A DNA stretch of 64,000 nucleotides, taken from Sutcliffiella sp. FSL R7-0096 (lineage in GTDB: Bacteria > Bacillota > Bacilli > Bacillales > Bacillaceae_I). The translations under genes were made by a program, and so were the position numbers. The notes under the pieces are model-generated. The model saw only the letters and a list, made by a program, of their open reading frames with translations. It searched no databases and was not told the origin of the DNA. How positions within the stretch are numbered: the stretch's first letter is position 1; each line of letters starts with the position of its first letter. Below are positions 38,710 through 64,000 of this stretch, one piece after another. The stretch lies in the NCBI RefSeq assembly GCF_038595065.1, contig NZ_CP152003.1, positions 786,001 through 850,000 of the forward strand, read 5' to 3'.

Positions 38710-38790
38710 GATTTTATAGTCCAACTTTTTGATTTATGAGCCAACTTTCGATTTTATAATCTACTTCTTTAATTTATAAGCCACTTTAGG
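38710..38790. repeat. Four degenerate 20-bp direct repeats in a long intergenic region
   Basis: Four adjacent units of the type GATTTATGAGCCAACTTT start at 38710, 38731, 38750 and 38771. The whole gap 38473-39097 holds no gene that I can support. Near its end is the GGGTCAGAGTACCTGCCTC string (38993-39011). Confidence 0.6.
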
Positions 38791-39097
38791 TGATATAATT
38801 GCCATTCGATTAAAACCGCCATAATTCTACAAGTGTAATCCTGCCAGCTGTCGGAAACAGTGTTCCTCACCCCACTACAATCCCACGACCTTTAACCAAA
38901 ACTAAGTTTTATTTTTCCTGTGATCGGGAATGTAAAAAAAAGGTAGTGCTTTTAATGATGGGAATTCTGACGGATTTTTTTGAAGTGAAAATGGGTCAGA
39001 GTACCTGCCTCTAGGCTCCTTTTTAAAGCATAACTCCTATTTTATATGGGTTTTGGAATTGGTAAAATTAAACTATCTATGCAGGTGGTGATGGTAA

Positions 39098-47144: not shown

Positions 47145-47711
47145 TCACCGCAAATCCGACAACCCGCGATTCAAGAACCCGTTCAGTATCCCCGCCATTT
47201 CCTTGGGTGACTTGTTCATCCCGCTCTCCAGCCAGTTTTTGATCAAGTAAATACTTCCGCTGACGAAGAATATACTTAAGTATTCAAAGGTTTCGGGGTC
47301 AAGCTGCTTGTTTGGACTCCAATTGTTCAATATGTACTCCTTGGCGATCATCATGCCTTTTTTCTGGAATTGCACTTCGGTGTTTTCACTTAATAGAATC
47401 CGGCAGATATCGCTTTTGGAGGCGATGTAGGCGAATATCTTTTCGGTCATTTGGTATGCTTCGTCTTCTTTGGAGAAATTATATTGGTTAAGTGTTTTGA
47501 CCATGTCCTCAGTAAATTCGTCGTCAATTGCATTCAGCAGGTCATATTGACTGGAATAGTGGGCGTAAAAAGTGGAGCGGTTTATATCCGCCTTTGTACA
47601 TATCTCTTTTATAGTAATACTTGCAATGGATTTTTCTTTTAATAAATCCAACAAACTTTCCTTCAGTACCATGCGTGTGTACTGCTTTCTTCTGTCCATC
47701 TTTGCACTCAT
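47145..47711 (-). CDS. TetR-family transcriptional regulator
   Basis: 188 aa from ATG at 47711 (GTG at 47720 is possible). N-terminal helix-turn-helix SITIKEICTKADINRSTFYA with HYSSQYDLLNAI, then a helical ligand domain with the TetR_C_7-like LIKNWLESGMNKSPKEMA. It is divergent from the MMPL exporter and its partner across a 52-bp tandem-repeat array, so it probably represses them. Confidence 0.88.
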   Translation of the reverse strand: MSAKMDRRKQYTRMVLKESLLDLLKEKSIASITIKEICTKADINRSTFYAHYSSQYDLLNAIDDEFTEDMVKTLNQYNFSKEDEAYQMTEKIFAYIASKSDICRILLSENTEVQFQKKGMMIAKEYILNNWSPNKQLDPETFEYLSIFFVSGSIYLIKNWLESGMNKSPKEMAGILNGFLNRGLSDLR

Positions 47712-47895
47712 CTTCCACACAACCTTTCATGAAAAACAACACAATAGAATCATTTGTTGTCTATCTAACATTCAGAACACAACTGTCTGTTGAATACCCA
47801 ACACCGTGTCTAATATAATAATAAGATGTAAAACTGTTTTCGTAAAGCTGTTGCTTTTTCGTTTGTGTAAACCAGTCATTAAATTACTGGAAGAC

Positions 47896-48415
47896 CGTAT
47901 GGAACCACGAGAGCCCGAAAAAAGGGAAAGTCAGTCGTCATAGAGGGCGAATGGAACCACCAGAGCCCGAAAAAAGGGAAAGTCAGTCGTCATAGAGGGC
48001 GTATGGAACCACCAGCACCCGAAAAAAGGGAAAGTCAGTCGTCATAGAGGCCGTATGGAACCACCAGAGCCCGAAAAAAGGGAAGGTCAGTCGTCATAGA
48101 GGTCGTATGGAACCACCAGAGCCCGAAAAAAGGGAAGGTCAGTCGTCATAGAGGGCGTATGGAACCACCAGAGCCTGAAAAAAGGGAAAGTCAGTCGTCA
48201 TAGAGGCCGTATGGAACCACCAGCACACAAAAAAAGGGAAAGTCAGTCGTCATAGAGGTCGTATGGAACCACGAGAGCCCGAAAAAAGGGAAAGTCAGTC
48301 GTCATAGAGGCCGTATGGAACCACCAGCACACAAAAAAAGGGAAAGTCAGTCGTCATAGAGGCCATATGGAACCACCAGAAACACAAAAAAAGAGAAAGT
48401 CAGTCGTCATTGAGA
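47896..48415. repeat. Ten-copy 52-bp tandem repeat array
   Basis: Ten head-to-tail units of exactly 52 bases, beginning CGTATGGAACCACCAGAGCC and ending GTCAGTCGTCATAGAGG; starts at 47896, 47948, 48000 and so on to 48364. The last unit is the most diverged. Length differences are absent: only substitutions occur. 52 is not a multiple of three and there is no open frame through it, so it is non-coding. It fills the TetR-MMPL divergent region (47712-48494), leaving about 80 bases before the exporter. Confidence 0.95.
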
Positions 48416-48494
48416 GAAGCTATAAAAGTCCTAATGCCGACAGAGCTACAATACTTTGAAAAGAGCCTCGCAAAGGGGAAAGACACAAGAGAGG

Positions 48495-50559
48495 ATGAAA
48501 AACGATAAATATTGCATCACGTATTATTAAACATAAAAAGGCTGTCCTGATCATATTTGCTTTGGTGACCATCATCTCGACCGTGGCGCAGTTTTTTGTC
48601 TCGGTCAATTATAATATGGTAGATTATCTGCCCGAGGATGCCCAGTCGACCAAGGCGATGGAGATCATGGAAAAAGAATTTACAGGCTCTGTTCCGGATA
48701 CGAGGGTCATGGTGACGGATGTATCCCTTCAGGAAGCAGTTTCGTATAAAGAAAGATTAGAAGCCATAGAGGGCGTGGCTGAAGTGATCTGGCTCGACGA
48801 TGTGGTAGATTTGAAGACGCCACTCGAAATGGCGGACATAGAAATGGTGGAATCATACTACAAAAATGAGAATGCCCTTTTTTCCATCAGCGTCCGCAGT
48901 GGGGATGAGGTGGCGATCACGGATACTATCTATGAATTGATTGGAGACAATGGCGCGATTGCTGGGGAAGCGATCAATACGGCAACCTCACAAAAAATGG
49001 CGGGGAACGAATCGATGTATGCGGCCATGCTGCTTGTGCCGATCATCATTTTCATTCTGATCATCTCCACGACCTCATGGGTGGAGCCGGTTTTCTTCCT
49101 GACCGCCATTGGGGTGTCAGTGCTTATCAACTTAGGAACCAACATCTTTATAGGAGAGGTTTCCTTTGTGACGCAGTCGGTTGCTCCGATTTTGCAGCTT
49201 GCTGTGTCACTTGATTATGCGGTGTTTCTGCTACACAGCTTCGCAGAATATCGTAAAAAGACAAACAATCCGGAAGAGGCCATGGAGCTTGCGATGAAAA
49301 AGTCGTTCCCGGCCATCACTGCAAGTGCGGCGACGACATTCTTCGGATTTATTGCCCTTACGTTTATGGAATTCGAGATTGGTTCTGATCTTGGATTGAA
49401 CCTGGTGAAGGGGATTGTTTTGAGCTTTATTAGTGTCATGGTGTTTTTGCCGGCATTGACATTGTTCTTTTATAAATGGATGGATAAAACCCAGCACAAG
49501 AGCTTTATCCCAAGCTTTGAGGGAATCGGGAACTTCGTGGTGAAGTTAAGGGTTCCTAGTTTACTAATCGTACTCGCATTATTGGTTCCGGCGTTCCTTG
49601 CGCAGACCAATACATCTTTTACATATGGATTTGGTGAACTGCCAGACCATACGAGAGCGGGTTCGGATTATAAGCGTATCAATGAATCCTTTGGGGAAAT
49701 CACCCCGATCGTGCTCTTGGTGCCAAAGGGTGAGGTGGCCAAAGAGGAGGAGCTTGTTGCGGAAATCGAGGCCATGGATTATGTCACAAGTGTGGTGTCT
49801 TATGTGAACATGGTGGACCCGGTGATTCCGCCGGAGTACCTGGATGAAGAGGTCCGGAGTGAATTCTATTCGGTGAATTACAGTCGGATCGTTATCAACA
49901 CCAACCAGGCGACAGAAGGAGACATTCCTTTTGCCATTGTGGAAAATGTGGATAAAGCCGCATCTGACTATTACGGGGATTCTGCGCTCAGCCTTGGGGA
50001 GAGCGTGACCTTGTATGATATAAAAAATACAGTCACCAAGGATAATATTCTCGTCAATGTGCTGACGGTCGTAACGATTGCCATTGTGCTACTGATTGGT
50101 TTCCGGTCGATTTCCATACCGGTCGTGCTGCTGTTGACTATTCAGTCCGCGGTATGGATTAACCTGTCGATTCCGTATTTTACGGAGACTTCCCTCGTGT
50201 TTGTGGGGTACCTCATCATCAGTACGGTGCAGTTAGCAGCAACTGTAGATTATGGGATATTATTTACAGAGGCCTATACGCACCATCGTAAGGAGATGTC
50301 TGCGAGGAAGGCAATTATAAAAACGCTGGATGAGAAGACCTTCTCGATTTCAATCTCGGCAGCCATTCTATCGAGTGTCGGGTTTATTTTATGGATTACG
50401 TCTTCTAACCCGATTGTCGGATCGATCGGACTGTTGCTTGGAAGAGGGGCGCTGCTGGCGTTTATCATGGTACTATTCTTCCTGCCGGCGATGCTGCTTG
50501 TGTGTGATAAATTCATCAAAAAAACAACATATAAGTCCAATTTTAAAGAGGAGAAGTGA
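48495..50559 (+). CDS. MMPL/RND-family exporter, with an apparent frameshift at the fifth codon region
   Basis: About 687 aa. Two repeats each of one membrane helix, an extracellular domain and five more helices, as in YdfJ-type MMPL transporters. SLDYAVFLLHSFAEYRKK and TVDYGILFTEAYTHHRKE are the paired proton-relay segments. The frame is open from 48499 and reads KTINIASRIIKHKKAVLIIF, a typical start, but the only good ATG (48495, after GAGAGG) is one base out of frame because of an A5 run. Removing one A would restore it. The alternative start TTG at 48562 would delete most of the first helix. Confidence 0.8.
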
Positions 50560-63684: not shown

Positions 63685-64000
63685 TATGAAGACAATCTGG
63701 AAGGTGATTTTTAGTTAAGATTGTCATTATACTGCTTATGAAGACAATCTGAAAGGGGCTTTCTAGTTGAGATTGTCATCATACCGCTTATGAAGACAAT
63801 CTGGAAGGTGATTTTTAGTTGAGATTGTCATCATACCGCTTATGAAGACAATTTGGAAGGTGCTTTCTAGTTGAGAATGTCAACATACTGCTTATGAAGA
63901 CAATTTGAAGGTGCTTTCTAGTTGAGATGGTCATTATACTGCTTATGAAGACAATCTCGTAGCTTATTTCTTGTTGAAAAGGACTTCATATCGTTTATGA
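63685..64000. repeat. 52-bp tandem repeat array of hairpins, running off the window edge
   Basis: Six units plus the start of a seventh, at 63685, 63737, 63789, 63841, 63893, 63944 and 63996 (periods 52, one of 51). Each typical unit has ATGAAGACAATCT, a loop of about 19 bases, and AGATTGTCATCAT, giving a 13-bp stem with one mismatch. Non-coding. Unrelated in sequence to the array at 47896 but of the same period. Confidence 0.92.

Follow-up and report, generated by a model that had tools for sequence, protein, structure and literature searches.

A 52-bp tandem array of ten units, lying between a TetR-family regulator gene and an MMPL-family exporter gene of Sutcliffiella sp. FSL R7-0096, is one member of a dispersed family of paired-site DNA. 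I put at roughly one in two the probability that the arrays of this family are phased sites for a putative oligomerising DNA-binding protein, as judged from sequence comparison. The window analysed here is a stretch of 64,000 nucleotides, which carries two of the arrays. In the examined stretches of the 4.9-Mb genome (G000), 32 arrays with about 249 units were found, the second window array included, by using two-unit consensus queries of the two window arrays and then fetching the loci.

The window array and its insertion site

The features of the window are as follows.

47145–47720, minus strand: TetR-family regulator gene, neighbour of the array (Pfam TetR_N and TetR_C_8)
47790–47819, plus strand: sigma-A-like promoter TTGAAT-18-TATAAT, between the TetR gene and the insertion (alignment and consensus scan)
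47833–47894, plus strand: left part of the MITE-like dispersed repeat enclosing the array (40 matches with E ≤ 1 in the same genome, itself included; insertion boundary)
47895–48414, plus strand: 52-bp tandem array of the window type, ten units GTATGGAACCACCA-17(A-run)-AAGTCAGTCGTCAT-7, or ATG..CAT of 43 bp plus a 9-bp linker (TRF, printed units and geometry count)
48415–48471, plus strand: right part of the MITE-like repeat, containing ...TTTGAAAAGAGCC (match by eye to the copies read; insertion boundary)
48505–50559, plus strand: MMPL-family exporter gene, neighbour of the array (Pfam MMPL, ORF and alignment)
63685–64000, no strand assigned: second 52-bp array, of the main type (ATGAAGACAATCT..AGATTGTCATCAT), about six units, whose end in TRF lies 2 bases past the window end

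TRF reported the first array with a period of 52 bp, 10.0 copies, 92% match, 0% indels, and a score of 842, at ends one base off those of the first-pass annotation. Since 31 further arrays of the same period exist in the same genome, an array with this score is not a product of chance. Thus, the ten-unit array described between the TetR and MMPL genes is real according to TRF and Pfam. The accompanying claim of no length variation is true of units 1 to 9, which differ by substitutions only, and fails for unit 10, which has one extra base (ATG...CAT of 44 instead of 43) and a diverged end; nine of the ten units are 52 bp. The second array, missing from that annotation, differs in sequence from the first.

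The MMPL protein was used as a query and gave 31 loci, 30 of them from close relatives (Sutcliffiella, Rossellomorea, Metabacillus, and others) and one from a distant one (L111, 29% identity). The TetR gene was detected by blastn in 27 of these loci, and in none of the 31 did TRF detect a 52-bp array in the gap that precedes the MMPL gene. Fifteen loci have a clean empty site, in which the alignments of the two intergenic parts lie no more than about 15 bases apart. Since the two flanks nearly abut in these relatives, the additional stretch of about 639 bp in the window (47833–48471) is an insertion, with AAA at the junction. Judging from these alignments, the window array is a strain-specific insertion nested inside a MITE-like repeat. 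When 40 of the 73 candidates for the left part of this repeat were scored, 39 matches besides itself were obtained, while the right end searched alone gave no other convincing copy (one match, E=0.995). The 20 copies read (L112–L131) are mostly about 180 bp long, ranging from 78 to 220 bp by a rough end rule. As a rule, they end with GGCTSTTTTC..GAAAAGAGCC (GGCTSTTTTCGTAAAC...GAGAAAAGAGCC).

All ten aligned relatives share the -10 element TATAAT of the promoter, with TTGAAT or TTGTAT as the -35 element. A consensus scan gave two sites against a shuffle mean of 1.5, no better than the shuffles, so the case for this promoter rests on its conservation. Because the array lies downstream of this promoter, the insertion adds about 0.64 kb to the MMPL leader; the array is not the TetR operator. 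The special link to the regulator and its probable target that had been proposed is thus not borne out: the array is a strain-specific nested insertion downstream of the promoter, it is not conserved between regulator and target in the related loci, and the same family occupies 31 other sites of the genome. An array of TetR operators was rejected on the basis of the empty sites and the position relative to the promoter. A striking repeat between a regulator gene and its target need not be an operator.

The frame of the MMPL gene lacks ATG, GTG, and TTG at its conserved beginning (48505–48507), and the sequence ATAAATATYGC behind AGAGAGG is kept there in 10 of 10 aligned relatives. The MMPL start is probably the conserved ATA at 48505, whereas the mechanically called ORF begins with TTG at 48562. 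The conservation suggests either a non-standard start codon or a short overlapping leader ORF.

Array family and unit geometry

By crude ORF calling, 23 of the 32 arrays lie in gaps between same-strand genes, 6 between convergent and 3 between divergent genes; a mechanically called ORF of 103 aa overlaps one array, L046. Thus, by this calling, the family consists of high-copy intergenic inverted repeats. Twenty neighbour proteins at 11 of the arrays were scanned against Pfam, and they include tRNA synthetases, COX1, signal peptidase II, a ketoacyl synthase, and a nuclease-related (NERD) protein. No function is common to them, two have no match at 1e-5, and no recombinase, transposase, or toxin family is among the 20. 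The flanks of ten window-type arrays are unrelated and have no common ends. One mobile element around all window-type arrays was rejected, as the flanks differ; the common insert ends of a MITE or TIR transposon were not observed in these ten, nor was a target duplication when solo units were inspected by eye. The window-type array L041 sits between main-type units, and both L041 and L064 have units of another type beside a homogeneous core. In this set, gathered by similarity to two queries, more arrays lie towards the contig ends than towards the middle: 23 of the 32 fall in the end-proximal half (p=0.02).

The main-type unit, ATGAAGAC-29-GTCTTCAT, forms a dyad of 45 bp around an A-run; its frame is ATGAAGAC(n6)-17-(n6)GTCTTCAT, followed by a 7-bp linker. 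When the core was relaxed, a length of 45 bp was counted for 124 of 129 units at the loci fetched from G000 (the others are 41, 43, 44, 46, and 50 bp, one each). Of the 115 linkers, 112 measure 7 bp and the remaining three 6 bp. A whole-genome search that allowed gaps from 20 to 48 (29 lengths) returned at least 100 matches per strand, while the reversed control returned none. Among the matches listed, all are 45 bp except one of 46 bp and one of 43 bp, and several are solo units. The window type reaches the same period by a different partition, 43+9 (62 of 65 units are 43 bp and 63 of 63 linkers are 9 bp). In this type, the palindrome does not extend past CATA/TATG, and a homodimer would therefore find unequal half-sites there. 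At the one site of the GAGGAC type, the partition is 42+9 or 43+9 (28 and 12 of 40 units, both strands counted), giving 51 or 52 bp. The predominance of 51 bp in this type counts against strict invariance. Over all consensus rows of TRF, 66 of 69 are 52 bp, two are 51 bp, and one is 53 bp; without seven repeat listings, 59 of 62 are 52 bp, some rows being orthologous sites.

For ten units and a helical repeat of 10.4–10.5, the phase coherence is 67–100% with a 52-bp period and 4–22% with a 51-bp period; at a helical repeat of 10.6, the value for 52 bp is only 6% (0.06). The arrays have 25 indels to 774 substitutions relative to their array consensus, a figure somewhat lowered by the preference of TRF for indel-free arrays, and the 20 MITE-like copies of the same genome have 37 to 480.

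The arms of the main-type unit are symmetric beyond the cores used for finding them. At positions 9 to 12, 36, 36, 39, and 27 of 46 units are symmetric, compared with 20.5, 19.3, 23.9, and 17.8 in shuffled sets (P ≤ 0.0024 each); the 46 units, not all independent, were picked for both cores, so that positions 1–8 carry little information. In G000 alone (n=29), the count is 112 of 174 against 75.6. At positions 13–14 symmetry does not exceed shuffling, and at position 5 it is if anything below. The majority sequence of the pooled half-sites is ATGAAGACAATCTC. An A occupies positions 21–23 in 36, 38, and 43 of the 46 units, numbers inflated by orienting the units on their A-content.

Inverted repeats of this kind could pair in a transcript, and use of the conserved promoter would make the window array part of the transcribed MMPL leader. 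Thus, a row of transcribed hairpins, acting as a stabiliser, an antitoxin-like RNA, or a decoy RNA, was considered. The mismatches between the arms are 20 G-T and 20 A-C, which gives no sign of RNA pairing, and the strand of the A-run relative to the genes is mixed (8 versus 12). No Rfam family matched at the gathering threshold across the window, no toxin family is among the scanned neighbours, and the window type is not palindromic. RNA hairpins were rejected on the wobble count, the mixed orientation, and the Rfam result, and I regard the whole structured-RNA explanation as very improbable. In contrast, the earlier proposal of a period of about five turns in an architectural or protein-binding array acting at the DNA level gained support. 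The 52-bp period recurs across unit sequences and partitions (45+7 and 43+9), solo units have a fixed length, and no RNA wobble bias is seen.

Distribution and turnover of the arrays

Is the family common in the genus and in the order? Pairs of ATGAWGAC with gaps of 29–59 occur 19 to 681 times (both strands) in 14 of 16 genomes of the genus, against 0 to 4 in the controls. One to three pairs, read as background, are present in G003 (80% complete), in G004, and in the single genomes that represent the family's two other genera. The pattern ATGAAGACN44ATGAAGAC, with cores spaced 52 bp, was found in 36 of 397 genomes and 16 of 135 genera of the order (taken as Bacillales); 14 of the 36 are from this genus, some have a single match, and the reversed control matched in 9 of 397 genomes, up to 13 times. 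The window type was not found among the loci examined outside G000, most of which were chosen by other criteria. The window array has no match in 72,556 plasmid or 50,697 phage records, and the window-type pattern is present in no viral contig. A main-type pair occurs once in each of 29 viral contigs, none of which has a 51–53-bp array. A phage or plasmid origin was rejected because there were no matches or single motif pairs only.

A second class of intergenic tandem repeats, AT-rich and with periods of about 20–21 and 40–42 bp (two and four turns), was observed at L081–L109, at 38710–38799 of the window, and at L178. At Rossellomorea aquimaris L096:7827–8337, there is an array of 20 copies of a 25-bp unit with the palindrome GAGCCAGGCTC.

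The search for single units that had been recommended was productive: solo units exist and have a fixed length. The solo L222 occupies the same place in G000, G011, and G007 (three of three aligned) and is 45 bp in each; its ends ATGAAGACAA...TGTCTTCAT are kept, while its middle is diverged and its flanks contain indels. The solo L216 is 45 bp in G011 and G006 with decayed cores, and the site holds three units in G009. In 20 orthologous-site comparisons covering 12 arrays, TRF detected an array of the 52-bp class in 12 and none in 8. At the site of the second window array, S. horikoshii biET1 has an array of about 320 bp (about six units), and FJAT-14233 has a gap of about 130–150 bp with four recognisable half-sites. 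At L065, there are about five units in G000 and one in biET1; at L219, there are five in G000, two in biET1, and none in two other aligned genomes. L214 has two units in G000, one of 44 bp in biET1, and a half-site only in G005. The site of the window-type array L046 is empty in biET1. At L044, where G000 carries a 52-bp array, biET1 carries a 20-bp array, which belongs to the second class, and no 52-bp one.

At most of the shared sites the half-site type is the same; FJAT-14233 has a different one at L064, L067, and L071. The idea that each genome has its own site type was too strong and was dropped, since a type is common to many orthologous sites, in FJAT-14233 as well (L050, L051, and L218). 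The genome-wide counts of GACAATCT are 75/83 in G000 and 1/2 in G007, and those of AGACCTC are 23/9 in G000 and 228/100 in G007; for AGACCTC, the reversed control reached 7/7 (G011) and 2/11 (G013), so that small counts mean little.

Copy number thus varies between strains in whole units, as in minisatellites or VNTRs, and the absence of arrays or units at several orthologous sites is expected for neutral or selfish DNA. The first-pass annotation had argued against a slippage-prone satellite, which is half right in view of these shifts; variable copy number and units across the genome, which make up part of what it had named as speaking against a binding array, were both found. Might the arrays be an ordinary minisatellite like the MIRU VNTRs, whose 52-bp period goes back to a single ancestor and owes its persistence to homogenisation alone? 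Units are alike within an array and arrays differ from each other, and the constancy of the period within an array could result from descent and homogenisation. However, the constant 45 bp of solo units cannot be the work of homogenisation, and the unit types reach 52 bp through different partitions. Furthermore, the 31 loci chosen by the MMPL protein contain 13 tandem arrays of at least 100 bp, four of which have a period of 52 or about 104 bp, two of these (L083 and L103) with 52-bp units of other sequence; among the rest, seven have multiples of about 20–21 bp, one has 25 bp, and one has 89 bp. A minisatellite alone is therefore an improbable explanation.

The gains and losses of whole units would also be explained by an array of crossover sites for a tyrosine recombinase, and the inverted 14-bp arms around a 7-bp centre (14-7-14) resemble lox and dif sites. 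In this case, solo units should keep the 35-bp core, but they keep the 45-bp dyad with the A-run. In the window type, the centre is 9 bp and the arms are unequal, and the scan of 20 neighbours gave no recombinase. This explanation is hardly credible.

A putative binding protein and known systems

The fixed solo length, the different partitions leading to 52 bp, the symmetry at the DNA level, and the A-run fit paired half-sites and an oligomerising protein. In the proposed model, a main-type unit would offer two inverted half-sites of about 14 bp, 17 bp apart, with the A-run between them. Units would follow every 52 bp, or about five helical turns, and half-site centres would alternate at 31 and 21 bp (about three and two turns), which would place all half-sites on one side of the helix. 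A putative oligomerising sequence-specific protein may bind the half-sites cooperatively and bend or wrap the DNA, and such binding and bending would select for the 52-bp spacing. The copies may have spread locally by tandem duplication, and the window type also by insertion into other repeats.

A broader version of this model was also entertained, in which a satellite-like system of helically phased paired sites across the chromosome, present in several families of the order, would serve one fast-evolving putative DNA-organising protein. Its subtypes would expand and decay at the same loci without loss of the five-turn period, as in the decayed units of another type next to homogeneous cores at L041 and L064. 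I regard this version as rather unlikely to hold in full. In either form, the fixed spacing would point to a putative binding protein behind an abundant non-coding element of nearly base-pair precision, and the turnover of subtypes at fixed loci would allow the co-evolution of satellite-like DNA and its binder to be studied in bacteria. No description of the 52-bp array family was found in the titles and abstract openings of the open-licence literature.

By genomic behaviour, the closest known kind is the REP/BIME elements. According to the available text of PMC3733652 and PMC3116915, REP, BIME, and REPIN sequences are dispersed intergenic inverted-repeat units that occur as singlets and tandem arrays and are amplified in different subtypes per genome; tandem REP arrays are known in P. 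fluorescens SBW25 (PMC3116915). The main rival is therefore selfish DNA of this kind, a short inverted repeat copied by a trans-acting transposase, sometimes in tandem, without a host role. The high copy number, intergenic position, dyad symmetry, solos and arrays, and subtypes amplified differently per genome all agree with it, and 16 of 16 genomes of the genus have one or two Y1 transposase matches (in G012, a 24-bit fragment with a stop). However, 12 of the 20 Y1 matches were examined and none has a 52-bp array within about 1.5 kb, while G003 and G004 have Y1 genes yet lack ATGAWGAC arrays. On reading, the ends are ATGAAGAC/GTCTTCAT or ATGGAACC/GTCGTCAT, with no GTAG/CGTC tag; no target duplication was seen by eye at the solo units, and some positions and lengths are retained over divergence. 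The arrays also differ from REP elements in the A-run centre of the 45-bp dyad and in the 52-bp period. REP sequences driven by a RAYT (a Y1 transposase) were rejected, since the examined Y1 genes are unlinked to arrays, and the selfish-DNA explanation as a whole is possible but doubtful. The Y1 (IS200-like) match of G000 at L210 (G000:C1:4620007–4620336) has a C-terminal end that is diverged or cut relative to its orthologues.

Two other repeat families share some of these features. The MIRU minisatellites of mycobacteria have a unit size near 53 bp. Like them, the arrays are dispersed intergenic tandem units of strain-variable copy number; unlike them, the arrays have dyad-symmetric paired half-sites, have fixed-length solos, and occur in several genera. 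The BOX elements of Streptococcus are small mobile repeats with a variable number of tandem units, whereas the ten window-type arrays have no common ends and only some lie inside another repeat.

In the available text of PMC8789054, the paired PurBoxes of Bacillus PurR are two inverted 14-bp boxes 16–17 bp apart, and PurR is thought to wrap DNA and oligomerise. The main type has the same spacing (14-17-14), while the window type differs (43 bp). The central CGAA of each box is absent, the core here being GAAGAC, and there are dozens of arrays compared with the 12 PurBox sites given there. Thus, the paired PurBoxes offer the closest studied geometry, with a different sequence, and may be taken as an analogy for how the proposed protein would meet its sites.
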